Notes under the pieces: model-generated
What the model was told of the DNA's origin: nothing
The model's input: the letters and a program-made list of their open reading frames with translations, nothing else
The model's database searches: none
Position numbers and translations under genes: made by a program
NCBI GenBank assembly: GCA_022539475.1
Contig: VCMS01000009.1
Span: forward strand, 322,043-386,042
Direction: 5' to 3'
Source: Gracilaria domingensis
Lineage: Eukaryota; Rhodophyta; Florideophyceae; Gracilariales; Gracilariaceae
DNA: 64,000 nucleotides
Shown: in pieces, positions 8,801 to 64,000 of the stretch
Numbering within the stretch: position 1 is the stretch's first letter
Layout: the number at the start of each line of letters is the position of its first letter

Positions 8801-10366
8801 ATGATCACGATTCCTATTGATTCCCGATTCGTCAATGCTGTTGTCTATATTGTCATTGATGTCATCGTCTATGCGGTTTTAGTGCTGGCCCTTGTATCCT
8901 TACAAGGCTGGCTCACCAAGCAAAGTGTTCTGCGTGGTGAGCGAGTTTCGTTGCGTGAGTTTCGCTTCTCGCCACTAGCCGGAGGTGTAATCGCCGATGG
9001 AAACCGTTTTTCTGCTCTTCTTGTCGCTGTTCACTTTGTGCTTCTTGGAATACTGTTTGCGTTAGCTTTGGGTATTAACGGTCGAACAGCGAAAGCAAAG
9101 CGTCCGACAAGCCGGCAGTATATATCGATTTTACATCCTCGGACAGCACCTGTCGTGACTGATAATCGAGTTTATCCACAGATAATGGCTGGTTGCACTG
9201 AGTTCGAGAATGAACGATTAACCTACTATCCTGTCGCCTTCAATCAAGAAGAGACACCTTCCATCCCAGTTTCAGCTCGTCATTTGAGGCGAAGTCTCAA
9301 CGATAACATCGGGACAGCCATCAACTCCGGCAGCGTTGTGTGCCAAAAATTTAAAGGTGCTAAAGCTATGCTCACCGTGTCACGATGCGGAACTGATGAA
9401 AACTCCTGCTGCAATTTGAGTCTTTCTCCCCGAGTCCGCCTTGACCTTGAGGAAGGACAAGATGGACCAAACGTTTGGCAGAGGAACCACGTGCATCGAA
9501 ATGAGTCTTCGATTATTATGATGAGAAATGTCAAACCTGTGTCATACGATATGTCCCGAGTCACGTACGACCGATTGATTTGTTTGCATTTCGCTCAACA
9601 GTCAGATACGAATTCAACAGCAACAACAATAGATTCCACGGGTAGAATGAACTGCATGTTGGGGACATGGGGTGCCGATGCCACCAAGTTTATTTTTCGA
9701 CTTGGGAATGCAACATTTCCAGATTCACGTCAGGAAGAGATCTTTGATAACGAACAGGTTACAAGCGTGCAGTTTACGGCATTTTCTGTAGAGACAGAAA
9801 TTGGCTGGGATGCGCTCGCCGAGATCACTCTGACCAACGGGCTACATTCCATTGGAGGAAATATGGTTCCCGCCCGATTGTTCCTGGACACGTTGGTTAG
9901 TCGTTCATCAGTTCCTACTAGGATCACCGACGAAGCAATCTTCGAGCAGTACGATATTAACGTCACTGATGTGAGTACTCCAGCTGTAATCGGCTACGCA
10001 ATTCTATGTGTTCTAGCTGCATTCATAGCACTATCAAAAGCTGTGCTTCGTTTGAAGAGTTCTGCTTGCGAAAATGAGCATCAATGGGTACCAGATATTA
10101 CGACATATGACGGTTTGTTGATGTTATTGAAAGGTGATGACACTCGTCGATGTGCAAAGCGAACTACCCGTCCAAAAGTAGAGTTTGGGATAACATGTGT
10201 GGGTCCCTTGCATTCCTGGTACAGTTTCGGGCCTGTTGAAGAGGGCGATAGGGTCGTGAACCTTCCGAAGGAAGGCATTCTCAGATGGCATCGATGCATC
10301 GAAGACGTTATGTCGGCTGCCAAAGACGACGAAACTCTCGATACTAGTTCAATAAGTTCTGTGTGA
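8801..10366 (+). CDS. three-segment membrane protein of an unnamed local family
   Basis: A 521-residue single-exon protein starting at an ATG with A at -3. Hydrophobic segments lie at about residues 8-34, 66-90 and 396-418, giving two N-terminal helices, an ectodomain of about 300 residues and a cytoplasmic tail of about 100 residues. The ectodomain has a cluster of cysteines (VCQKFKG...SRCGTDENSCCN, around residues 180-205) and several N-x-S/T sites, for example NLS, NES, NST, NAT and NVT, consistent with a glycosylated extracytoplasmic domain. The organisation matches the membrane protein at 60764-61888, including a similar stretch entering helix 1 (TIPIDSRFVNAVVYIV against IIPLRPVSTQLIFTII), and the broken copy at 55.3 kb. 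I know no named family with this plan. A surface receptor-like or structural role is a guess only. Confidence 0.8.
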   Translation: MITIPIDSRFVNAVVYIVIDVIVYAVLVLALVSLQGWLTKQSVLRGERVSLREFRFSPLAGGVIADGNRFSALLVAVHFVLLGILFALALGINGRTAKAKRPTSRQYISILHPRTAPVVTDNRVYPQIMAGCTEFENERLTYYPVAFNQEETPSIPVSARHLRRSLNDNIGTAINSGSVVCQKFKGAKAMLTVSRCGTDENSCCNLSLSPRVRLDLEEGQDGPNVWQRNHVHRNESSIIMMRNVKPVSYDMSRVTYDRLICLHFAQQSDTNSTATTIDSTGRMNCMLGTWGADATKFIFRLGNATFPDSRQEEIFDNEQVTSVQFTAFSVETEIGWDALAEITLTNGLHSIGGNMVPARLFLDTLVSRSSVPTRITDEAIFEQYDINVTDVSTPAVIGYAILCVLAAFIALSKAVLRLKSSACENEHQWVPDITTYDGLLMLLKGDDTRRCAKRTTRPKVEFGITCVGPLHSWYSFGPVEEGDRVVNLPKEGILRWHRCIEDVMSAAKDDETLDTSSISSV

Positions 10367-11600
10367 TTTGGACTGAGAAGGAGCTTGAGAAAAGAAGAAA
10401 GGCACGTAATGGAGCGATTTGTGTAGTATTGATGGGCTCATTGTGAAACTCTGCCAGATTCGGGGTTTTGCTTCCGAAGTGGATGAATAGGATTCGCAGG
10501 CATGATTGAATGTGAGGCATACGACTTCTGTTGAGAGAGTTTTAATTCACAGCTCAGCGTCATCGCGCGGAGGAAATGCTTCGCGCTCGGCATCCTGCCT
10601 CAGGCATATCAACGATGGCTTTATTTTGATAGTCAAGAACGAATCGAGTGTGAAGCACGATCTGAGACAACGCTGGGATCAGCCAACAAACCTTGGGTTA
10701 CTAATCGACTCTCTCCGTGGAACTGTCCAACTTGTACTTGTAGTTTTTGTGGGAGGAACTCCGTTTCCGTTCTAATCTGGTCCTGATCTGGTCTAATGAC
10801 CACAGCGGACTGTCTCTCACGTTTCACCGACAGTGATTGGGGGAGTAAGTTGTTGCATCCATGTTGTGGTTCCCAGAAGCTGGGGGTGGTTGAGATGTTA
10901 TCACTGGCATACGAACACGATAATAGTAAACCACTTCAGTCCAACGCGAAGGCAGGTGCCCACTGTTCCCGTAGAAACTTCAAATCATTGATTAAAGGTT
11001 TCTACGGAAACAGCGGGTATATCAGCAATGATTTTGCTTGGTTTAAATACGGAGTTCTGACCTTTCGCCAACACATTCGGCCATATCAGGTTGACATGCG
11101 CCGCATCCCATCCCGAACTGCGAAGCTAAGCACCTTGAGAGAGAAAATGAAGCAAGCAGCGTGGACTCCTGAAGAAGTGAAAAGTGTTGAACGAGTTATA
11201 GAGACGATTATTATTGTCGATGATAAGGCATTGCGAAATGGCGGTCGTGAAGGGCGAGTTGACCAACAGGTACGCAGTGGGCGCCTTAGGGCTGCTTGAG
11301 TCATGAGCAGTTGTGACACCATAACACATGGTATCGTAGATTGGTGTTGAAGGAAGACGAATTTGAAGACATAAGAATTCTGAAGAGCTACTACCTACGC
11401 GCCCTGGAAGGGGACAATAGGTAAGGGTTACCAAAGGTACTTCGAGCTGGGCTAGCTAGTAGTACTGACATGAGCGGACGGTCTGGAATCCCCAGAGCCG
11501 AATGTTTTGCCATTTTGGCTTTTCCCCGTTTTCATTTTCTTCAAATAATATTTCGAGGCACGTGGAAAAGGATTTATTTGTAGGTCAAGTGGCCGTCTCG
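10367..11600. other. intergenic with one doubtful open frame
   Basis: A rightward ATG frame at 10796-11299 (167 codons) has no recognisable domain, biased composition or good context, so I do not call it a gene. Otherwise I see only short chance frames. Confidence 0.45.
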
Positions 11601-48481: not shown

Positions 48482-49125
48482 AACGCAAACGGAGGAAGCG
48501 ACGCGTCGTCAGAACGCGCTGTCGGGCTCTCGCATGCGCCGAGTTCCACGCCTGAAACGCGCGCGCCTACTTACCATCTTGGACGCTGCGCCGCGGCGAC
48601 GGTTGCGGCGGTTGCGGCGGTTCCACGGCTCGGCCGTTCCGCTTGGCGTTGGCGCGCGCCGCGCCGGCTCGCATGTAGAGCGGCGGCGCTGCCCTCCATC
48701 TAAGTACAGCAACGCCTTGTCGGCCCACGTGGCCTGGTCCCCACGTGGCCAGCTGTACACGCTGTAGGGCTTATTACTCCCGATTCTTACTAAGAATTTC
48801 TTAGCGCATCACACAAGCGCGCGCGGCGAGAGCTCGCACCTTCTCCGTCGCCACGCAACGCATCGCTCTGCGCGTGCGCCGCCGTCAATATGCCGCCGCA
48901 ACGCGCCCGCCACTTCATCGCCGCCGCCGCCAGCTGGTCGCCCACCCCCTTCACGCGTCCTCCCTGATTATCACCTGCCCCCGCTCTCCTTTCGGACAGC
49001 CCACTACAAATACCCGCCGCAATGGCGGTTTGGAGCTCGCCTTGTCTGCCCGTCATCCCCACCCCGACTGTTTGCTTTCGCTGCTCACTGCCTACTCATT
49101 CTGCCCGTTGCTCCGCTGCTCCTCC
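48482..49125. promoter_or_regulatory. divergent promoter region, DPH3 / secreted repeat protein
   Basis: 644 bp. GC-rich on both sides with no clear TATA box. The rightward frame is open from 48874, but the typical signal-peptide start lies at 49126. Confidence 0.45.
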
Positions 49126-51519
49126 ATGTCTGTGCTAACTTCTATTCTAACTGTGTGCGCGCTCTGCGTCGTCCAGTCTCACGCTGCCTTCGAGTACATC
49201 TTTGACTCTCCCTCTCCCTCTCCTCATGAAGCGTCCTATACCGTCATCCAAGTTCCGATCCCCGCTCACGGCCCATCTGGCTTGGTTCGCACGTTTAACT
49301 TTTTTGGCCACAGCCCTTCCCCGTCAGTCTCCGTAACTCCCAACACGCTCCTTCAAACCCCAGAGGTCATCTCCCCGTACTCGCAGCCTCCCACAAAAAC
49401 GCCCGCACCACTTCGACTCATTCACAAAGTTCTTGGCGGAGCCGATGTTGCTACCGTCCCGACTTCATCCATCTCCGCTAGCCCTTCTGGCGAACTTCAA
49501 TCTTTTCCCGTCGTCACCACGCCCTCTGTTCCTTCCGATGATGCCCACGCCTCAGTCCCTCCTGCCCCGTCTCCCTCTCGGCCCCTGTCGCCCCCATCTC
49601 CGCCGTTGACCAAGCGCATCATCGCTATACCACTCCGTGTGCCGCGTCCCCTGCCTCCGTCGGATTCATCGCCGTCCCCATCCATGTCGGCGCACCAATT
49701 CGAAACCAAGCCGTATCAAGTTCAGCGTCATGTCTTTGTGCCGCAACGGGAAACACATTCATACTTCAAACCCTCACCCGCCTTCAAAGTCCAAAAGGTC
49801 GAAGATATGCCGCCTGACGTTCAGCATGATGTCCTTACACCGCCCACGTTCCAAATCCCACCTTTGTCCGTATCTCCGCAGCCCTCATTGCTCGTTTCCA
49901 TTGCTCCAAGCTCATCAATTCCGCCAAATTCGATCCCTCCAGAAGTCGACGCTGTTGACCATGTTTTTGCCATGGAAGCAACTATTCCGCCGAATGGTCA
50001 GATTGTAACGCCCTTCCCTCTCCCGAGTGCCTCACAAACAATCGTCCCTTTGGAAATTCGTCTACAGAAAAGGATCCATGCCACTCCACTACCGATGCCG
50101 TCAATGAGCCCGCTTCCTTCTCATGAGCCGCGAGGTCCTCATGCAGATTTGATGCGCAATGTCGAATCGGGATTCCTCCTCGGAAATACGTTTGAGAACA
50201 ACGCAAAGCCTACTCCGCAAAATCCCTGCACCGTCACGCCCTCCGCAGTTCCATCAGTTGGTCCTTCTAACGCCGTCAGAGTTGCTCGCCGCCATCGGGT
50301 CCCTTCAATCAGAACGGGAGCGAACGCTGCATCTGACACCCTCCCGTCGCCTGGTTCTACCCCATCTGAAGCCCCATCCAAACTCGAGACGCATGGCACC
50401 AAAATGTTCCATCGCCATCGACGCCCGGTCAGAGTGATATACCGCCATCGATTACCCTCACTCAAAGTCAAGATGGAACCCGCCCGCAGCACCGTCGCTT
50501 CTCCCAGCCCTTCACCGTCCACTAAACCGGCCAAGCTTTGGATGCACGACGTCAAAATGTTGAATCGCCATCGAATTCCGATCAGAGATATATACCGCTA
50601 CCGATTGCCTTCACTCAAAGTCGAGAAGGAACCCACCCGCAGCACCTTCGCTTCTCCCAGTCCTTCACCGTCCACTAAACCGGCCAAACTTTGGATGCAC
50701 GAAGTCAAAATGTTAAACCGCCATCGAGTTCCGGTCAGAAATCTATACCGCCACCGAATGCCCTCACTAAAAGTTAGAAAGGAAACGGTCTTCCCCACGA
50801 CTGCTTCTCCTAGCTCTGCCCCGGAGTACTCGGAACCGGAACCGGATGCTGATGGGTTTGGTCCGTCTCCAGCACCGTCCAAAGCTCTGCTGGTGTATGG
50901 TGAGAGAATGGTGCGGGCCCATGGAGTTTCCTTTGCCGAAGCGAAGAAGCAGAACCTAGGCACAGCTGAGAGGGTTCAAGGGGCTGCTTTCGGTGGCTTT
51001 GGAGGTAGCTCTTCACCTTCCCCGCAAAAGGCGATTGGTCCGACTCCTTCAGTATCCAGGGACGTTGATACGGCTTATTCGACTCCGATGGTGGTAAAGA
51101 GTTCAGTTCCGCCGTCGCCGTCGCCCTCGTACGTGCCTGGAGTGTCTGAAGAAAGTGTGCGCGTTGCTATGGAACTAAACCAGAACTTCAATGAGCTGGG
51201 CATCATGCTGGCGTCTCCAGAAGAGGAAGATTATTCCTATTGCGAATCTGTGAAGCAATGTATGTGCGCCGTAATTGATGACAAATTGCTCAGCACTTCG
51301 CTTCTCTCATATTGCGACCATCTCAACGAGCTCAACTATTCATTTTGTGAGCAATCTAAAGAGGCACACATCTTCTTACAGTTTTGGACTCACAAACAAG
51401 GTACATCTATCAAGTCAAGAGGAATGGAACTTGTGAACGAATGCAATCTTGGAGACATTATGATACATTATGACCGCCTTGCTTCTATTAACCGCGAAGC
51501 TTTCCATGAACCGCTGTAA
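49126..51519 (+). CDS. large secreted Pro/Ser-rich repeat protein
   Basis: 797 residues. A signal peptide (MSVLTSILTVCALCVVQSHA) leads into a protein dominated by PSPSP blocks, resembling hydroxyproline-rich glycoproteins of algal and plant walls. Residues from about 380 to 610 carry a repeat of exactly 51 residues (three good copies, two degraded) with the core KMLNRHR(I/V)P(I/V)R..YR.R(L/M)PSLKV. The last 110 residues are different: a compact Cys-containing domain (YSYCESVKQCMCAVIDD...SYCDHLNELNYSFCEQSKEA...NECNLGDIM) with no Pro/Ser bias. No membrane anchor is seen, so it is probably extracellular or in the wall. I recognise no family for the C-terminal domain. Confidence 0.82.
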   Translation: MSVLTSILTVCALCVVQSHAAFEYIFDSPSPSPHEASYTVIQVPIPAHGPSGLVRTFNFFGHSPSPSVSVTPNTLLQTPEVISPYSQPPTKTPAPLRLIHKVLGGADVATVPTSSISASPSGELQSFPVVTTPSVPSDDAHASVPPAPSPSRPLSPPSPPLTKRIIAIPLRVPRPLPPSDSSPSPSMSAHQFETKPYQVQRHVFVPQRETHSYFKPSPAFKVQKVEDMPPDVQHDVLTPPTFQIPPLSVSPQPSLLVSIAPSSSIPPNSIPPEVDAVDHVFAMEATIPPNGQIVTPFPLPSASQTIVPLEIRLQKRIHATPLPMPSMSPLPSHEPRGPHADLMRNVESGFLLGNTFENNAKPTPQNPCTVTPSAVPSVGPSNAVRVARRHRVPSIRTGANAASDTLPSPGSTPSEAPSKLETHGTKMFHRHRRPVRVIYRHRLPSLKVKMEPARSTVASPSPSPSTKPAKLWMHDVKMLNRHRIPIRDIYRYRLPSLKVEKEPTRSTFASPSPSPSTKPAKLWMHEVKMLNRHRVPVRNLYRHRMPSLKVRKETVFPTTASPSSAPEYSEPEPDADGFGPSPAPSKALLVYGERMVRAHGVSFAEAKKQNLGTAERVQGAAFGGFGGSSSPSPQKAIGPTPSVSRDVDTAYSTPMVVKSSVPPSPSPSYVPGVSEESVRVAMELNQNFNELGIMLASPEEEDYSYCESVKQCMCAVIDDKLLSTSLLSYCDHLNELNYSFCEQSKEAHIFLQFWTHKQGTSIKSRGMELVNECNLGDIMIHYDRLASINREAFHEPL
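50365..50820 (+). repeat. 153-bp coding tandem repeat, three clear copies
   Basis: The period is 153 bp (51 codons), for example AAAATG at 50401 and 50554, and GGATGCAC near 50540 and 50693. Copies 2 and 3 are the most similar. Degraded copies flank the array. Confidence 0.9.
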
Positions 51520-52327: not shown

Positions 52328-53068
52328 TCAAGTTACGACTACTCCGCATGACTGTACTGCAGATGCCGAGAAACCTCCGAGAGTAAGACCTTCCGGAGAA
52401 GGAAGTTCCGTGATTCCGTCGATAGGCATCGACATAAGTGGCAGAAAAAATGTCGTTCCATCGGCTTGAATAGCTTCAATACGGCTTGGAGTACTCAATC
52501 GTTCGACTTGACGGGACCCTAACGTACCAAGTATCCCTTCTGGTAGAGAATCAAAAGCAAGCGGAGGAGGGGTGCCTATCGGCGCATCGGCAAAGGCTGG
52601 GCTCCGAATACAGAACATCATTGCGTCCACTGTGAAATTTCTCGGATTGGGGCAGCTAGTCGACAGGTTGAAAGGTGCGAATGGGTTTCCATCGAATTCA
52701 AACAGGTCGGTGCCTATGTCTACCTTGCTAACAACGCTGAGAAAACCAAAATTTGGCTCTTCGACTACGCGAAGCACAGAAATTGGAGCGGTCCGTGGTC
52801 CTATGAAGCATTCTACCACTGTACCATTCTCTTGAGTGCAAAACGGGCATCCTTTTTCGCAAACTACTAACGACGACGGGAAAACTTGTGGTTGTTGTTG
52901 CTGTTGTTGCTGGTCCTGAACATCTTGACGAATGAGCGGTGACTTTGTAGATGATGCGGTGTTTCCAAGGAAAGGCGCCTTGGATAGCTTTGACTCGAAC
53001 AGTGGGAATGAACTGGAGATGCAAAAGAAGATTGCCAGACCGAGCAGATGGAACTTGATCATTTTCAT
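52328..53068 (-). CDS. secreted cysteine-containing protein, unknown
   Basis: 246 residues with a signal peptide (MKMIKFHLLGLAIFFCISS). A short Ser/Gln-rich spacer including a poly-Gln stretch (residues about 54-60) is followed by a compact domain from about residue 68: CEKGCPFC, VVECFIG, STSCPNP, MFCIRSP and a final QSCGVVVT. N-glycosylation sites (NGT, NLS, NFT) fit secretion. A strong TATA box (TATATAAAG) lies 135 bp upstream of the start. The CPFC resembles a thioredoxin active site, but the surrounding sequence does not, so I do not infer redox activity. No family recognised. Confidence 0.78.
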   Translation of the reverse strand: MKMIKFHLLGLAIFFCISSSFPLFESKLSKAPFLGNTASSTKSPLIRQDVQDQQQQQQQPQVFPSSLVVCEKGCPFCTQENGTVVECFIGPRTAPISVLRVVEEPNFGFLSVVSKVDIGTDLFEFDGNPFAPFNLSTSCPNPRNFTVDAMMFCIRSPAFADAPIGTPPPLAFDSLPEGILGTLGSRQVERLSTPSRIEAIQADGTTFFLPLMSMPIDGITELPSPEGLTLGGFSASAVQSCGVVVT

Positions 53069-53211: not shown

Positions 53212-53558
53212 CCTTCGTAACATTGTTGTGAAGCTTGCTGTTCGCCCCATTTTGCAACAGCTCTTCACTCATTACACCAAAGAGCAAGCGTGCACAATAT
53301 TACCAGCGGCCACTGGCCGATAGTAATTTCCGGTACCTGATATATTGCTTGCGTGGAGCTCTTCTGGTGCGACGCAGGTGCTCTTATATTCTTGTGGTAA
53401 GGAGGGGAGTCTATATTGTTGCGAAACGCCAAACTGACACGGAAGAGTGTATTCACGGCGGCTTCCCAAATTCCCGGAGCCCTCTACAAGTTGTACGTGT
53501 AGAAGATTTTTATGAGTAATATCCGTGATCTGATGTTTTGCTCTTTTGCTCGTTTAGA

Positions 53559-53613
53559 GCTCGCTTGGGGCTTCAGTGGTGCTCGCCGAGCACCACTGAA
53601 GCCCCAAGCGAGC
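53559..53613. repeat. perfect palindrome, 27-bp arms, 1-base centre
   Basis: The left arm begins GCTCGCTTGGGGCTTC and the right arm ends GAAGCCCCAAGCGAGC. All 27 base pairs match, with a single C between the arms. Such an almost spacerless palindrome is unusual in eukaryotic DNA because it is prone to deletion. Confidence 0.95.
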
Positions 53614-55253
53614 ACTGCTCGGGTGGAGTCAGGATTAAAGAAACTGATTACCGTCGTTCCTGTATATGATAACGCATTTTGCTTTATAACCGTGTGTGCT
53701 TGCATTGCGTGCGTTGTCCGCGCAAGTGCACAAACCGCAGTCACTGGCTTCCTTAATTTCGATTATTACGCAGCATCATATGCGCACAGTAGTCATCTAG
53801 AGAAAGATGAGCTATTTGCTCCGATTTGTTGTATTTGTGTGTACCAAAGACGCAAATGCGTCTTGATAGAGCTCCTGCGAAATATAAGGCTCAGCGGGGA
53901 GATTGTGGCTTTGGCAGGTTTACGATATTCTTTTTACAACTTACACTACGGTTTGTATCGGTCTTGTACGACCAACGCGACGCAGCCCCATCGGAAACCG
54001 TTAGTCTCCTCGGCACATGCAGCCCTGCTGAGGGCCGCCACTGTGCTCCCCATCATTGTTCGGTCGAACAGCGCCGCCGAGCGCCGGGACACTGGAGCTC
54101 GTTGGTCCGGAACTCTAGCTTCAAAAGGAGCCAGAGGACCGTGACTTGACAGACTTCGGCAAAGAGGGCTCCACATACTCACCGAGCGCTATCCTGAACC
54201 TCGACTCAGTGCTTGGCCTCCTTTCGCTCGGGCACGCTTTCTCGCGTAGTGGAGTTCGTGCGACATTATGCATATACGAAGGTATCTTATATTTCTGCCA
54301 TTTTGAACCGACAGCAATCTGACCTTCATGCGAAGATCAGGTGAAGGTGTCATTGGACCGACTATCGCCACGTAGGTCAGGGCACTTGGAGACGAAATGT
54401 CTGCGTAAGCTGCCTCTCCACGTGCGTTCCACATTTCTCCAGAGCGCTGGTTCGCAGATTTGTTGCTCCATTCTCGGATGTATTATATATGTTGCACAGA
54501 CAGTGTGTGGTCTATATCTACCCAGGGGTATCCTTATACCTCTTACATACAGGATAGCGCTGATTCTCTTAATCCGGCGCGAGTGGTATCGAATAATTTG
54601 GGCGCTCTTCAGAGACAAGGCTCGCCACGTACCGTTGGAAAGCAAAAGGGCTACCTGACGCATGAAAAACAGGTATAGGTTATTCTGGCTCTACGTAGGT
54701 GGAGGGACCGCAAAGAGGACACACCACACTCGAGAAGTCCTTTCCTTTTTGGGCGATCTTGCGTAGGTAGCACACCGTAGGTAACACTCACGACTTGTTC
54801 CTGTCTCCCGTTTTGGAGACAACTGGTGGCATAAATGCCACTGTTCCCTGCCATCTCGGTAAACGAGACGGCATCGAACCTCAGCTTTCCGAACCGTTCC
54901 CGTAGTGCGCCACAACAGGACCGTGTCGAGCGATAGTGGACTGAGGCAAAGGCTTGCCCGAGCGAAGCGAGGCCAAGCATTGAGCAATCGTTTCCTCTCC
55001 GAATCAGTTGATCTTGTTCGCTACGCACCGTCGTAACTGGCATCAGTGGCTTCATTTTACTATTAGAGTGTGATGAAACACCATGCGTTCGGCATGCTGC
55101 GGCAAGATCGTAAACCCACTTGAAAACCATATCATGTGCAGAGTCAGCGAGCTGCAGATCGAAGACACAATCACTAATTCAACACCTCCAGCCATGTGGC
55201 TTGGGCGAGCACAAGGATGGCCATAGATTAGCCACGTACCTCCATGTCGTTGA

Positions 55254-56181: not shown

Positions 56182-57630
56182 TCAGGACTGGCGAGGTGCC
56201 TGTCGCCTCATTACATCAGGGCACGAGAGTCCTAACGAAAACTCATCTAAGAGTCCTGGACCGTTGTCGATCACTCTGGTTACGGCAGTCAACATACTTG
56301 AGGACACCTCCCTTTCATCAGAAAGCAACACCGCCATCGCACCGCTAACATGAGGGGTAGCAAAAGAAGTTCCAGACACCAGACCTTGTGAAGTCGAAAT
56401 GTCTACCCCGGGGGCAGATATATCTATGCAATCTGCTCCTATCTCGGAAATATTGTTTCCTTCGAAGGGCACACTTTCGCTATCGTGTGCTTGCACACTG
56501 AAGAACTTTTCGTCTCGAAAAAAGGCTGGGAGCATGGTACATGCATTGTCTCCACCATTTCCCGCCGCCCCAGCTATGAACACGCCCATGTCGGTCAAAG
56601 CCTCCAGCGTGTCTGCAACTAAACTGGCGAACAGTGGGTCTACACCGATACCCCCCGATAAAGAGAGATTGACAACGTTTCCCCTCGTCGCATTATTCAA
56701 GTTTGCTGCAACAAAGGATAAGCCCAGCAGCACTGTTCTCCAGCCGATCCCCGGATCAGGGAGAATATCCTCGAAAACACGCAAGCAGTTCCGAGTGCTC
56801 TCCACAGCCACGCCACTTGGACCAGTGGCAATCTCACTTACCGCCGTCCCATGCCCACTGGTATCACTGCATCCTGGTACCGGCTCAGGTCCTAGAAAGT
56901 CTTGACAAAATCCATCGGTAGTCGGTTCGCAACCAGTATCAAGAATCCACACACTCACATCCCGCCCATTCATGCTCAGTGGAGCACATGTGCGCAGCCC
57001 ATCCGTAGGAAAGCCCCCATCTGTTTCGTCAATGCCGAAAAGGTCGCATTCTATCCGAGAAGGCAGTCTCCGTTGATTGGGCAAAAGTAAGCTTCCTCGA
57101 AACGGGAAACCCCTGGAAGTGTTCAAGATGCAATCTGAGACGAAAGGCTCCTCCGGCAGTATAAAGGGTGGAATATCTGGTATGCTTACCGTGCGGCTAT
57201 TGACAATACTCAAAGGACGTGTACCACCTCTTGCCAGGGCCCTGCTCACGACCCTGATCAGCTCCTCTGCGAAAGCCTTTAGCGCCCTTTCTGGCAGATC
57301 ACGCAACTCCTGGATATCGCATGAAAACGATTCCACACGGACTGGTCCAATATCGATTCCTACGAGACCGATTTCGCAGCCCCTAGTCAGATTGCTTGCA
57401 TCCAGAAGGGTTTGCACTTCTGAGCGGCAGGCAGCGTCACACGGAGAGGAGATTCGCAAGAGAAATTCATCTGGAATGATTGCATCATCTGTCATTTCTG
57501 CCCGTAAAGGATTACGGGGTTGAGGCATCATGCGCCCAGTTTGGTCTGTCTTGAGTTCTATTGCTTTTAGAACGACAGCGAACGAGAGAGTCAGTAAGAT
57601 GGAAAAGCATATTCTCGTGCTACTGTGCAT
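56182..57630 (-). CDS. secreted subtilisin-like serine protease (S8)
   Basis: 482 residues. A signal peptide (MHSSTRICFSILLTLSFAVV) leads to a propeptide-position domain at about 54-150 containing CDAAC and SFSC, and then a subtilase catalytic domain. The triad is intact: Asp 231 (WILDTGC), His 260 (SGHGTAVS) and Ser 422 (GTSFATPHVSG), with the oxyanion Asn 358 (AAGNGG). An NLSLSGG segment matches the substrate-binding strand. It should act outside the cell or in the secretory path, autoprocessing its propeptide. The chosen start is the ATG that begins the signal peptide. The prodomain-like region has cysteines, which I9-type propeptides usually lack, and resembles the C-terminal domain of the secreted protein at 58972-59718. 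No C-terminal P-domain or membrane helix. Confidence 0.94.
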   Translation of the reverse strand: MHSSTRICFSILLTLSFAVVLKAIELKTDQTGRMMPQPRNPLRAEMTDDAIIPDEFLLRISSPCDAACRSEVQTLLDASNLTRGCEIGLVGIDIGPVRVESFSCDIQELRDLPERALKAFAEELIRVVSRALARGGTRPLSIVNSRTVSIPDIPPFILPEEPFVSDCILNTSRGFPFRGSLLLPNQRRLPSRIECDLFGIDETDGGFPTDGLRTCAPLSMNGRDVSVWILDTGCEPTTDGFCQDFLGPEPVPGCSDTSGHGTAVSEIATGPSGVAVESTRNCLRVFEDILPDPGIGWRTVLLGLSFVAANLNNATRGNVVNLSLSGGIGVDPLFASLVADTLEALTDMGVFIAGAAGNGGDNACTMLPAFFRDEKFFSVQAHDSESVPFEGNNISEIGADCIDISAPGVDISTSQGLVSGTSFATPHVSGAMAVLLSDEREVSSSMLTAVTRVIDNGPGLLDEFSLGLSCPDVMRRQAPRQS

Positions 57631-58971
57631 TTCTGCGCGGTCTTCGTATTTTGGGGCTCGACACACTCTTGATAAGAGTCGGTAGCAAAAGAAATCAAGC
57701 AGGGGATATGATTGGAAGCAACGAGCTTAAGACGAGCTACGAGACGGAAACACAGGTTGCCAAGCCGCACAATATATCACACAAAAAGTAAGACGTATGA
57801 GGAGAGATCGCCGACCCCTGCAGGATTAAGCAACTTGCTCATTCCTACAGCAGAATATTGCAAGATTGCAGGACTGCAGTTGACCTATTGAATACACTGG
57901 TACACCTGCAATGGAATGGGATTTGTAGCTTCCATTTACTCGTCACTATGCTACAGGCAGCTTGTAGATTTCACAGCTCCTGTCTCATTCGAGGGAAGTA
58001 CAGCTTTAAAGTTTACAGCTTCGGAAGGTGGATAGTGCTCCCGATAAGTTCATTGATAAGGTGGAGCGATTGCTTCCGCCGTGCCGCGGTGGTAACTGGG
58101 CAGTAAACTATCATCGCGATGTCGTCCCGATAGCCACAGAGAGGTAGAGAACGATAGCTTAGCAGTGACTCAAGTGCTCGACGCTCCTGCAACGATTCTC
58201 TCCTCGATGGAACAACACATGGAGAGACGGCAGCGTGTCGATTTGTCTGCACCATGATCAATGATCATGATGATCATGATCATAGTGTAACTCGGAACGT
58301 ACACGTGTCGCTTCAAGCGGAGAGGTTGTTTCTGTATGTACAAGATATTCTGGTTAATTTCTTGTAGAAACGCTCGAGTGAAGAGCAGACAACGGCACAG
58401 GCGCTGTCTGCCCGCCGCTGTCTGCTCTTGAGCCTACCCATCTCTGCGCAGCACCGCGTGGTGGCCAGCACGGCCTTGGCCCAGCACGGCAGCGCCACCA
58501 CGCCCTCGCGCAACCACGTCCATCTCGTACCTTCGGAAGGTATCATACGCGTCGACAGGGGGCTCCACGTCGCGGCGTTTGCAGCCGTGCGCGCTCAGCG
58601 GTTTGTGGCGGCGGTCGGCAGTCGAGGCAGGTGCTTTGTGGGAGGGTAGTGTAAGTTACCAAAGGTACAGTATGCATCGCTGCTGGTGGGCAGCGAAGCA
58701 GGCGCGTCCCAATCGGGGCGATTTCGGAGCTTAGCCCAACTACCACGTGCCAGGACGTCGCGTGATGCTGTGTGACGTCACGCCACGGCGCCGTTGGAGA
58801 GCAAGTACGTGTCCCGTAGTGCATTTTCGGGATACGAAGAAGATTTACGAAGGGTAGAAGGATACAACTTCTACCGTAGAAAACTGCGTTTTGCTGCACT
58901 ACATCCAGCACCGCCTCGCCGCCCTCGTCCGCTGTCGTCGGAGTGGACCGCGTCTTTACTACGCCCCCGTG
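57631..58971. other. intergenic, no supported gene
   Basis: 1.3 kb. A TATATT motif about 145 bp before the protease start (57772-57778, minus strand) is a possible TATA element. A short self-complementary TGATCATGA cluster lies near 58255-58283. 58400-58650 is GC-rich but shows no coherent product. Confidence 0.45.
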
Positions 58972-59718
58972 TCACGCGCCGGGCGAGACGGGGTTGTCGT
59001 TGACGACGGACAGAACGGTGATGCCGAACGGTGCAAGCGCGACGTCCAGCGCGCTCTCCACTGTCGCGGCCGCCACCTCGGCGCCGCTGCAGCTGATGAA
59101 CACTAGGTTCACGCTGCCGATGTTCACCGGTGTCGCGCCCAGCGCGCAGTCACTCGACAGCAGCACGGCGCCCGCGAAGTCCTCGCACAAGCCCTCGCAT
59201 GGCGCGCTGATGCTCGCGATGAACGAGTTGGCGATGGCGGCCTCCGGCGTCAACCCCGACTCCGCGACGCCGCTTGCTTCCGGCGCGCTCGACGGCGACG
59301 GCGACGGCGATGGCGATGGCGACGGCGATGGCAATGGCGATGGCGCCGGCGACGGCGTCGGCGTCATCGTCGGCGACGACGTCATCGTCGGCAACGGCGA
59401 CGGTGATGGCGCCGCTTCCGGAGTCTCAAGCGGCTCGTCGGACTCCTCCAACGGCTCCGTGCTCATCATGTGCATGGCCATCAAGTCCGCGTCCATCATA
59501 TCCATGCCGTCAAAGTGTTCACTGCGGCTCATACCGGCGCGCAGCGACAGCGCGCCATACACGCGAGCCGTCTCTGCTTCAAGCCGCGGTGATGGCTGCG
59601 ACCATTCCGGCACATGCGCGAGCGCGTCCAGCGCGGAGCCCGGCACGACGTGCAGCAGCGAGCACAGAATCACCGCCCAGAGCGCGGTGATGCGGCGCGT
59701 GGATTGGCAAACAGCCAT
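58972..59718 (-). CDS. secreted Pro-Ser-stalk protein with a propeptide-like C-terminal domain
   Basis: 248 residues. A signal peptide (MAVCQSTRRITALWAVILCS to about residue 29) is followed by a Met- and Asp/Glu-containing segment and a P-S-P-S stalk (about 102-150). The C-terminal domain at about 163-246 resembles residues 54-150 of the neighbouring subtilisin-like protease. Shared phrases: SFIASISAPCEGLC against EFLLRISSPCDAAC, CALGATPVNIGSVNLVFISC against CEIGLVGIDIGPVRVESFSC, and LSVVNDNPVS against LSIVNSRTVS. No protease domain is present. It may therefore be a free propeptide-type inhibitor or chaperone held on an extracellular stalk; that function is inference. The stalk DNA is a GGCGAC/GGCGAT tandem repeat. 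Confidence 0.82.
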   Translation of the reverse strand: MAVCQSTRRITALWAVILCSLLHVVPGSALDALAHVPEWSQPSPRLEAETARVYGALSLRAGMSRSEHFDGMDMMDADLMAMHMMSTEPLEESDEPLETPEAAPSPSPLPTMTSSPTMTPTPSPAPSPLPSPSPSPSPSPSPSSAPEASGVAESGLTPEAAIANSFIASISAPCEGLCEDFAGAVLLSSDCALGATPVNIGSVNLVFISCSGAEVAAATVESALDVALAPFGITVLSVVNDNPVSPGA

Positions 59719-60763: not shown

Positions 60764-61888
60764 TCAGCATTCGTCATGTGCTCGTTCCGAGTGCGAACTA
60801 CGAGCTACACGAGTATCTGTATCCTCCGCGTATGGTACGCGCCCCTTGTACGAGACAACCACTGATCGTTGCTCACCTTTCCCACTTATTTGCACGTATG
60901 CCGTTTCCTTGTCAACCTCCTCGCTCGTCGACTCACTCAGTTTCTTCGCCCAATGCGACGGATCCCTCATGTCGTAAAACACCCTCCTCTTACCAAATCT
61001 CGTCCCGATGAACGCCAACAAACTCGAGATCCATATGAACAGTGACAAGATCGTAATCCAATATGGCAACACAGTTTCTCTTCGCTTCGATTCAATCATG
61101 TTGCATTCGCCTCGGCTTGTCTCACCGAAGAGTACTGTCCTTACGTGGAGCACATCCTGTGTTCCCCTCGCGACAAGCCCCAGCAACATTTCTGTCATGT
61201 CCTTCAGATAAGGGCTTGCGTCGTACGATATGTTGGTCCACAGTCCTGGAGTCCGTCCCCCAAAGTCATGGGTGGGCGACAGAGTAAGGGACAGGAACAC
61301 GGAAAGTCCCTCAGATAACATTCCCACACAGAACTTTTCACTACATATGGAATGATTATTTCTGCCGATAAACTCTTCAAAATCAGGCTCAGTATTTTCG
61401 TACGAAAGCAGCTCATCGCCACATTGCAACATTCCAGAATCAAGGCTTAGACTTCCTTCCGAAACGACTACTCTTTGACTCGTGCTCATTTGGAAACAAC
61501 CGAACGTGATAGCTGCTCTTTCAATATCATTTGTTTCGCCGAAATCTGTGGAGTTTCTGGGAGAAAAGGTGACACAATTCTGGTCGGCGTTGAGCGCACG
61601 ATCAAATTGCCCTGAGAACGTAGAGACAAGCGTTTCGACAGTTAGAAACATAATCAACGCTAGAAGTTGAATGAGCCGAATTCGACGAGAGTGCGATTTG
61701 ACGCTCAACGCCTTTCCTCTTTCGAGAAGATGACACTCCGCAAGGGCATGGAAGATCAACACAGCAGACACAAAGAGAAGTTCTGCAATGGCCATGATGA
61801 TGGTGAATATTAGCTGTGTTGAGACAGGACGCAAAGGAATGATAACACCTTTAGGGGTATCTTCAATGCGGTGAATGAAATCGTCCAT
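60764..61888 (-). CDS. three-segment membrane protein, same family as the 8.8-kb gene
   Basis: 374 residues from the ATG at 61888 (context GGTGCCATGG). Membrane segments at about 26-50, 73-91 and 277-298 enclose an ectodomain with spaced cysteines (CVTF, CFQM, QCGDELLSY, SICSEKFCVGM) and N-glycosylation sites (NST, NHS, NIS), then a charged cytoplasmic tail with basic and Ser/Asp/Glu clusters. The entry to helix 1, IIPLRPVSTQLIFTII, parallels the 8801-10366 protein, and the ectodomain matches the broken copy at 55.3 kb. The frame stays open upstream to about 62110 without an ATG, and a TATA-like TTTATAAAG lies at 62187-62195, so an extra N-terminal exon cannot be excluded. Function unknown; a surface receptor- or adhesion-like role is a guess. 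Confidence 0.8.
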   Translation of the reverse strand: MDDFIHRIEDTPKGVIIPLRPVSTQLIFTIIMAIAELLFVSAVLIFHALAECHLLERGKALSVKSHSRRIRLIQLLALIMFLTVETLVSTFSGQFDRALNADQNCVTFSPRNSTDFGETNDIERAAITFGCFQMSTSQRVVVSEGSLSLDSGMLQCGDELLSYENTEPDFEEFIGRNNHSICSEKFCVGMLSEGLSVFLSLTLSPTHDFGGRTPGLWTNISYDASPYLKDMTEMLLGLVARGTQDVLHVRTVLFGETSRGECNMIESKRRETVLPYWITILSLFIWISSLLAFIGTRFGKRRVFYDMRDPSHWAKKLSESTSEEVDKETAYVQISGKGEQRSVVVSYKGRVPYAEDTDTRVARSSHSERAHDEC

Positions 61889-64000
61889 GGCACCAATTTT
61901 TGTTGAAAGCAGAGCGCGTCCGTGAAAATCGGGGGGCAGGTGCTGGCCGATGAGTAAAGGCGGAGTTACCTGTGATACCGCGTTTAGGCAGTCGTGCTGT
62001 TGACAGATACTCGGTTCAGATACACTTAAGTTCAGGTTTGAAAGGCAGATAAGCTCGAGAGGAACAGTGCGTACTCTGGAAGAATTCAAAAGCAGCAATG
62101 TCCGTGACAACGCTCATGGTTCCCATTCGCACCTCCACTTCCCGTTTAGGTCCTTCCAATAAGTCAGTTACTAAGAGCAACATGTGCTTTATAAACAAGA
62201 TTGACAAGAGTGTAGGAAGGTACGAAAGTGCCAAAATGACGCGCACCTGCTACAAAACCAGGGGCGTTCGTAGCCACGGGAGCTCTCGATTTCTTGTCTG
62301 CAGTCTTCATTATGAATAACTGCATTCACTCATTTTCATTGGGTGTCAGATCTGACAGCTTGTGTTTGTGTTTTTAAAGGTTTCTTCAAACCTTTATCTA
62401 GAGACTCTTCTATCAGAAATGCTCAACACCTTGAAACACATCATGTCGTGCGAAGAGTGGAATGCATATGCGTCATTTTTGTTTCGAAACATTTCAAAAT
62501 TGTGCTACTCCTGCTACACAGTGTGTCAACAATGTCCTGCATATTGATATATGAAACGGAAGCAGACAAAGGTGGAGCCTGCTGCTTATCACTTTATAAT
62601 ACTGCGACGGTTGAGTCTTGGTTTTGCATTGATGTAGTAAGGCTCCTATGAGAACGGTCCTCTGCCAGTCTGGAAAAAGGCGCATTATCTTCTCAGCCTG
62701 TGGTGTCTGTCGCAATGGTTGCTCTCAGCTCCTAAGCACACGCCGTTTCCGTTTTCCCCATAGCGTTCAGGACTACAGTTGCGATTATTAAATATCCAAA
62801 GCGAAAAGGGGGCTCCCAAACACCAGTCTTTTTGTTCCGTTCCTTTCGACAAAAACATGTTGTAGATGTAAAGCTGTGGAACACGTAAAGAAAATGCGAA
62901 GTCCACGGTAGCTGTGACCATGCTGTAGGGAACAGCAACGGCACACGACTTCTGATCATGCCAAATTGTGCGGTGATACGGAGAAAGGATAGAGACCAAT
63001 CAGTGCTGGACCCTCTGTCTACATGTCGTCCCTATCGGCAAAGCTCCCACTCTATTGCATTGCCATTGGAATTCTCTACAAGTTCTGAGAGAGCTAGAAA
63101 TGGCCATATTGAGGTACGCGTCTGCGCAAGAATTTTATACAGTGTAATCGCGCTGCATGTTTCGGTTCTCGGCAAATTGCTATCGAGGTGGGGAGAATGC
63201 GTGCTTTCCCAAGACATGCACCTTTCTCTAGCTAGCTAACAAAACGAGACCAGTTGTTGTGTAACACGAGTGTTTCTTGTCAAAAATAGTGTCGTATATC
63301 GCAACGCAACGCTTGGAAAGCCGCTTTGCTTGTCAACAATGTCTGTTGCCATTATCTGGCAGAGATGCTCCCAACATTTTGGAAGATACCAAGGGTAACG
63401 ATGTACAAGGATACACGTGCATCATCGGGAAGTGGAGCGCTGTGTGAGCCTCTCAGAGGTGCTGATGTGCGTTCCTCAGGGACGGCATGCTGCCTTCGGA
63501 ACGATAATCAAATCAAAAACACGAAAACAGGGCCGAAAATGGCGCTCAGGATTGTTTGGAACTGTAAGCCAGCAAGGCTGTAAGTTTCTGTGCCATGGGA
63601 GCTTCGGTTCCTGTTCAATGTTCGTTTGGTTCATTGAACCAAACGAACAGGATCCGAAGCTGAGCTTCGTTCCCACAGCCTCGACAGAACCATATTTGGA
63701 TATTTGGATCTCTACAATCTTGTGATCCTGGTCCAGTTGACGATGATCGAGATGGCAGCAGCTGATGTTACTGGAAGTTGGAACTATCGACGAGTACCGC
63801 TCTCTGTAACAGGAGGCCTGTTGTCTGTTCACTTAACACGTTCTACGGTCGAGCTCGGAGGGCGTTGCTCTTATCTGCAGCTGCAGCTTTAGTAAGCACC
63901 CCTGCATGCGGAGGGAAAGCTTCGTCCCGCAAACCTCGAAACGAATTCTTCATGGCATGTACTTAATGTACTTCAGATGCTTCCGGGATCAGAGTCACTT
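61889..64000. other. intergenic, no supported gene; ends with hairpin
   Basis: 2.1 kb. The left part is the promoter of the membrane-protein gene. Remaining frames are short and featureless on both strands. A long imperfect hairpin (63601-63660) is listed separately. A gene may begin beyond the window edge. Confidence 0.45.
63601..63660. repeat. long imperfect hairpin, stem of about 26 bp
   Basis: The 60-bp stretch folds back on itself: right arm TGAACCAAACGAACAGG... pairs with left arm ...GTTTGGTTCA, with one mismatch and a 7-base insertion (AATGTTC) in the left arm. The loop is only a few bases. Confidence 0.85.

Follow-up and report, generated by a model that had tools for sequence, protein, structure and literature searches.

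A four-cysteine domain shared by a secreted S8 protease and a neighboring stalk protein of Gracilaria domingensis: a candidate stand-alone prodomain

Two neighboring genes in a 64,000-nucleotide stretch of Gracilaria domingensis DNA (assembly GCA_022539475.1, contig VCMS01000009.1, positions 322,043-386,042, forward strand; this whole stretch is referred to below as the window) encode a secreted protease of peptidase family S8 and a secreted protein with a Pro/Ser/Thr stalk, and the two proteins have in common a domain with four matched cysteines. In the protease this domain lies ahead of the catalytic part, at the position of a prodomain, and in the stalk protein it forms the C-terminus. The explanation that we favor, with slightly less than even confidence, is that the domain is a cysteine-bearing S8 prodomain and that the linked stand-alone copy acts in trans on the protease.

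Results

Homology of the two domains

An initial annotation of this DNA had listed ordered phrases common to residues ∼54-150 of the protease and ∼163-246 of the stalk protein, and the similarity is borne out. Aligned by BLASTP, protease residues 46-149 and stalk-protein residues 156-245 have 32 identities in 104 positions (31%, E = 1e-7), and their Smith-Waterman score of 99 compares with 26.5 ± 4.7 for shuffled sequences, the best of which scores 47, so that none of 2000 reaches the value for the real pair. Searches of the whole window in six frames with tblastn are reciprocal for both domains, with E = 2e-7 each way. All four cysteines of the domain are matched, those at positions 64, 68, 85 and 104 of the protease corresponding to 174, 178, 191 and 210 of the stalk protein, and the spacings of the first two (C-x3-C) and of the last two (C-x18-C) are identical in the two proteins; the alignment has 14 gap positions, every one of them in the stalk copy. 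These alignments show that the two domains are homologous. Of the phrases originally listed, C-x3-C and its companions are present, with a correction to the third, which reads LS(I/V)VN-x3-VS and not x4, and the residue numbering that was used fits a protease start at the ATG at 57630 (482 amino acids), not at the GTG at 57666.

No third copy of the domain was found in the window, the next tblastn match having E = 0.43 and the next match in a search with a two-sequence hidden Markov model (HMM), covering the window's 1108 open frames of at least 35 amino acids, having E = 1. Viral contigs, searched with alignment A2, contained no relative of the shared domain, and plasmids contained none of the stalk domain.

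Architecture of the two genes

The open reading frames of both proteins are on the minus strand, each a single open exon as read from the sequence alone, with the protease gene downstream of the stalk-protein gene in the same orientation and a gap of 1341 bases from the end of the stalk-protein frame to the protease ATG. The positions, the orientation and the gap of ∼1.3 kb given at the outset are thus correct.

The protease gene (56182..57630, minus strand, as are all features of the pair given below) encodes 482 amino acids in one exon. A putative signal peptide occupies approximately residues 1-24 (57559..57630), with strong hydrophobicity from residue 7 and a boundary set by eye, and is followed by the shared four-cysteine domain at residues 46-149 (57184..57495). 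An extra linker, approximately residues 153-196 (57043..57174), recognized from alignments with comparator S8 proteins and from low confidence in the predicted structure, then leads from the shared domain to the part that can be aligned with mature S8 enzymes, and the S8 catalytic domain extends over residues 222-449 (56284..56967), where Pfam gives a match to PF00082 that is above the cut-off (E = 1.5e-11). The closest sequence match in the PDB is proteinase K (3e-13), and alignment with that enzyme establishes that the catalytic triad is complete (D231, H260 and S422) and places the oxyanion residue at N358. A Foldseek search with an AlphaFold2 (AF2) model of the protease returned subtilisin/proteinase-K-like enzymes with a best E of 9e-16; among the 50 matches listed only the catalytic domain was aligned, so that this search does not probe the prodomain. 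The protease therefore belongs to peptidase family S8 and is proteinase-K-like. As a single query against viral contigs the S8 protein found no relatives, and with alignment A1 as query two distant S8 proteins were retrieved.

The stalk-protein gene (58972..59718) encodes 248 amino acids, also in one exon. From the N-terminus the protein consists of a hydrophobic segment, taken as a putative signal peptide of approximately 27 residues (residues 1-27, 59638..59718; hydrophobic from residue 10, boundary by eye), an acidic and Met-rich stretch, a Pro/Ser/Thr stalk at residues 101-150 (59269..59418) in which 18 of the 50 residues are Pro, 15 Ser and 5 Thr, and the shared domain at residues 156-245 (58984..59253), three residues beyond which the protein stops. 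The repetitive stalk by itself leaves long frames open on both strands, and it is the homology of the C-terminal domain that fixes the coding strand. The initial annotation had the protease copy preceding the catalytic domain and the stalk-protein copy C-terminal, with no protease domain, and both statements hold, the latter also in a Pfam scan of the stalk protein.

Relation of the shared domain to I9 propeptides

The shared domain of the protease is located between the signal peptide and the catalytic domain that starts at residue 222, and its size, ∼104 amino acids, is that of a prodomain; from this position we infer that it is cleaved from the mature enzyme. It had been proposed more specifically that the domain is an I9-type propeptide and that the protease and the stalk-tethered copy would make up an enzyme and its regulator. 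The homology, the prodomain position, the separate copy on an adjacent secreted stalk and a linked precedent in Plasmodium with demonstrated inhibition (PMC6993865) support that proposal in part, but I9 identity is not established by the sequence comparisons that follow.

For these comparisons we assembled I9-type propeptides of 30 S8 proteins (L001-L030), from 29 prokaryote loci and one viral contig; a 31st locus (L031), whose propeptide is not recognizable, is excluded from all I9 counts, leaving 30 of 31 loci in use. Because the remaining rows were badly trimmed or divergent, 23 of the 30 propeptides entered the MAFFT runs and 21 a reduced profile that served for the shuffle and three-block tests, and some of the 30 retained rows are also poorly trimmed. 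When the pair of domains is compared with the profile of all 30 propeptides by hhalign the probability is 5.8%, yet the score of 19.5 lies above those of 100 column shuffles (9.35 ± 1.88, maximum 16.9), and with the 21-row profile the pair scores 17.2, the highest of 60 shuffles being 14.6. Taken by itself, the protease domain is marginal, its score being reached by 2 of 60 shuffles with the 21-row profile and by none of 60 with the 30-row profile.

A further point of contact is provided by the end of the domain. Four MAFFT runs on isolated propeptides, which amount to three distinct results as the auto and localpair alignments are the same, set LSIVNSRTVSI of the protease and VLSVVNDNPVS of the stalk protein against the last strand and the tail of I9, for example VLSVEPDAIVT. 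In this alignment VVND of the stalk protein and IVNS of the protease fall on VEPD; the acidic pair, which in I9 propeptides caps helices ahead of the tail that goes into the active-site cleft, is not kept as such. The stalk protein terminates after PGA, which by eye makes its tail about as long as that of I9. This is the most suggestive of the I9 details, but it is a lead only, since the full-length alignment A3 places the last strand in another register. Near its beginning, IPDEFLLRI of the protease resembles VPDQYIVVL, the start of the propeptide of L002.

Other results weigh against an I9 propeptide, as does the register of A3. Neither protein has an I9 match in Pfam or NCBIfam, in scans where the HMMER filters discard most matches weaker than ∼0.1, and an HMM built from the 30 I9-type propeptides leaves both proteins at background. 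Among solved structures a two-row profile of the pair matched nothing at E = 10, and each domain used alone matched no propeptide. The stalk domain by itself is at background in hhalign, its scores being reached by 30 of 60 and 28 of 60 shuffles. A three-block I9 pattern gives marginal scores, which are reached by shuffles in 1 of 400 cases for the protease and 5 of 400 for the stalk protein, by 3 and 22, respectively, of 849 control windows (drawn from long open frames in the comparator loci, many of these frames not being genes) and by 3 and 4 of 143 windows taken from nine proteins of the present window; moreover, the two proteins agree in the place of the last block but not in those of the first two. 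No cysteine is present in 28 of the 30 comparator propeptides, as opposed to four here. Finally, a stretch of 52 residues lies between the putative last-strand motif of the protease and the position to which the first Trp of the mature-enzyme region aligns, a gap that is at most 14 residues in 21 of the 28 comparators measured (L012 and L028 were not; by eye, the search pattern set L001, L011 and L026 too long and L030 too short), making the linker of the protease ∼40 residues too long.

Structure prediction, which the initial annotation had proposed alongside a profile search, likewise falls short of a full fold in both proteins. The AF2 model of the protease was calculated with alignment A5, which holds 31 comparators over the catalytic part only and no propeptide rows, so that its prodomain rests on a single sequence; it was chosen because alignments A3, A6 and A7, which include comparator propeptides, either gave the middle of the domain an implausible threading or put the stalk domain in the wrong place, and might have imposed an I9 answer, and A4 was dropped since it, too, misplaced the stalk domain. 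In this model the catalytic part has the S8 fold. The prodomain has predicted helices at residues 66-78 and 114-133, with a predicted local distance difference test score (pLDDT) of ∼70, a short helix of lower confidence at 106-111, and strands of three residues each at 92-94 and 97-99 within a segment of pLDDT below 50. The I9 plan has this helix-strand-strand-helix order in its inner part, and the model is compatible with that plan without being proof of it. The first and last strands of the prodomain and the linker are unformed, and the outer strands are absent from the model of the stalk domain as well, all of which counts against the I9 fold, as does the low quality of the latter model, obtained from a two-row alignment (pLDDT 44.5, uninformative). 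The best Foldseek match to the stalk model had E = 0.61, at a model confidence too low for this to mean much.

The only match of the stalk domain to a solved structure is to 5yl7, a cold-adapted bacterial S8 enzyme (E = 0.016, or 0.051 with the whole protein), and it falls in a segment of the catalytic core and not in a propeptide, which again does not favor the I9 assignment. A derivation of the stalk domain from a piece of catalytic core was considered and set aside, because the protease copy has no such match (its best is unrelated, E = 0.16) and because the score with a 31-row catalytic profile is reached by 354 of 500 shuffles. We read the 5yl7 match as probably due to chance.

Given the four cysteines and the long linker, the shared domain would be either a disulfide-bearing offshoot of the I9 propeptides, in a protease with an extended mature N-terminus, or something other than an I9-type prodomain.

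Discussion

In the explanation favored here the shared domain would be the cysteine-bearing prodomain of the neighboring protease, and the stalk protein would be a separate copy of it that stands alone and is secreted on a Pro/Ser stalk. The cysteines may form disulfides, possibly within an I9-like fold. The copy on the stalk would bind the mature catalytic domain of the adjoining protease in trans and would either inhibit it or assist its folding at a fixed place, presumably the wall or the extracellular matrix.

There is precedent for such a pair. In PMC6993865, Plasmodium SUB1-ProM is described as a stand-alone propeptide mimic with a signal peptide, encoded by a single exon that adjoins SUB1 in the same direction, and as a fast-binding, potent inhibitor of SUB1 that shows no BLAST similarity except to its orthologues; I9 inhibitors that stand alone and Toxoplasma MIC5 (TgMIC5) are there treated as being of the same kind. 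The stalk protein is, like proteins of this kind, secreted, devoid of a protease domain and similar to a domain at the prodomain position of an S8 protease. It resembles SUB1-ProM further in being propeptide-like and encoded by a single exon, in adjoining an S8 gene in the same orientation, in resembling the prodomain, here a putative one, of that very protease and in ending near the C-terminus of the prodomain. The stalk protein stops where the shared domain stops, which would be expected of a stand-alone inhibitor. The two cases differ in that inhibition was demonstrated for SUB1-ProM and its likeness to the SUB1 propeptide emerged from fold modeling, whereas here the similarity to the partner is clear and is known from sequence, and in the four conserved cysteines and the Pro/Ser stalk of the present protein. 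TgMIC5, which is named in the same text, is a protist mimic of an S8 prodomain that controls a surface-trimming protease, and the MEROPS I9 stand-alone inhibitors, such as Pleurotus proteinase A inhibitor 1, are described there as a group (PMC6993865).

These I9 inhibitors are small and work in the manner of S8 propeptides; they have no stalk, unlike the stalk protein, which for its part has no match to the I9 profile. Others of the group are yeast proteinase B inhibitor 2 and Arabidopsis SPI-1, and to our knowledge none of the I9 stand-alone inhibitors has disulfides. With the proteinase-K-like proteins that supplied our I9-type propeptides (L001-L030) the protease has in common the catalytic domain, the triad and the order of signal peptide, prodomain and catalytic domain, and it differs from them in its longer prodomain with four cysteines and in the extra linker of ∼40 residues that follows. 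A protease linked to a stand-alone mimic of its prodomain is thus a known kind of arrangement, and what is new here is the stalk and the four cysteines. So far as we are aware such linked pairs are rare in eukaryotes, and literature searches, as far as the titles and the openings of abstracts that they listed go, found none that is algal or carried on a stalk. Were this a second case, remote from Plasmodium, it would point to repeated evolution of the arrangement, and a copy borne on a stalk would be a new way to fix a regulator of this type in space. Since the protease is identified together with its presumed partner, two recombinant proteins would suffice for a direct test of the proposal. 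A bolder version, which we regard as unlikely though well short of fanciful, is that a eukaryotic lineage, probably algal, has a disulfide-bearing S8 prodomain family of its own, distinct from I9, of which one copy is now a stalk-tethered extracellular regulator encoded beside its protease, which would be held inactive or set free at particular places in the cell wall or matrix.

The absence of an I9 signal from the family searches, the long linker ahead of the catalytic domain and the four conserved cysteines, which are unusual for an S8 prodomain given that 28 of 30 comparators have none, also lend themselves to a different explanation, one that we consider a real possibility if a somewhat doubtful one. 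The shared domain could be a general extracellular four-cysteine module that binds wall material, sugar or protein and is retained in the mature protease for targeting, with any propeptide confined to the linker (residues 153-196), and the link between the two proteins would then be the co-binding of one matrix and not regulation. Pro/Ser stalks often bear binding modules. However, the position and the size of the domain are those of a prodomain, the shared domain matches no known binding module in Pfam, and the pair has an I9 signal that, while weak, is above that of shuffled profiles. In addition, the only two copies in 64 kb are adjacent and not scattered, with the qualification that a single window is a poor guide to the genome.

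We think it improbable that the stalk protein is a partial duplicate of the protease gene whose domain now has an unrelated role or none, linkage being a relic of the event. Such an origin would account for neighbors in the same orientation with only the N-terminal domain of the protease in common, for the identity of 31% and for gaps that all lie in the stalk copy. Also in its favor is third-position GC, 0.84 in the stalk gene (58972-59718; 0.91 within the domain) versus 0.49 in the protease gene, a difference that shows the mutational or selective histories of the two to have been unlike. The pair is, in any event, not a recent duplication, as follows from this strong difference together with the similarity between the two loci at the DNA level, which is not significant (best E = 0.69) and on which grounds we also rejected a recent segmental duplication and, with it, a recent duplicate in decay. 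Retention of the four cysteines and of the ordered motifs despite the low identity, along with the persistence of a signal-like start and of the open frame, argues for selection and against a mere relic. Five other genes of the window in which third-position GC was measured, counting the protease gene among them, have values of 0.44-0.73, compared with 0.84 for the stalk gene.

That the stalk protein is instead a substrate or docking site, its probably unfolded stalk or its N-terminal part being cut by the protease whose gene lies next to it, with the domain recruiting the enzyme, is very improbable, there being no direct evidence for it and a domain copied from the enzyme itself being an odd choice for a substrate.

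Other features of the window

The window is eukaryotic nuclear DNA, as is clear from its genes for a seryl-tRNA synthetase, a Mad3/BUB1-type protein, a UAA-family transporter and a Myb factor and from a match resembling 5S ribosomal RNA (rRNA). The 5S rRNA match, at 11073-11195 on the plus strand, scores 39.5 bits against a cut-off of 38.

At 48874-51519 (plus strand) there is a long Pro/Ser-rich frame with, by eye, an internal signal-like Met and a cysteine-rich C-terminus; it has no Pfam match at 0.01, and its C-terminus is not similar to the domain of the stalk protein (best E = 0.33). Further downstream of the pair and on the same strand, 52328-53068 (minus) encodes another protein with cysteines, a poly-Gln run and a signal-like beginning, for which there is no Pfam match above the cut-off and no significant tblastn match elsewhere in the window (best E = 0.62). 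The frames at 8801-10366 (plus) and 60764-62110 (minus) each have, by eye, a hydrophobic stretch toward either end and cysteines in the middle, match no Pfam family above the cut-off and are dissimilar to one another (best E = 0.82). A near-perfect inverted repeat is found at 53556-53616, its two arms of 30 bases being 97% complementary and separated by 1 base.

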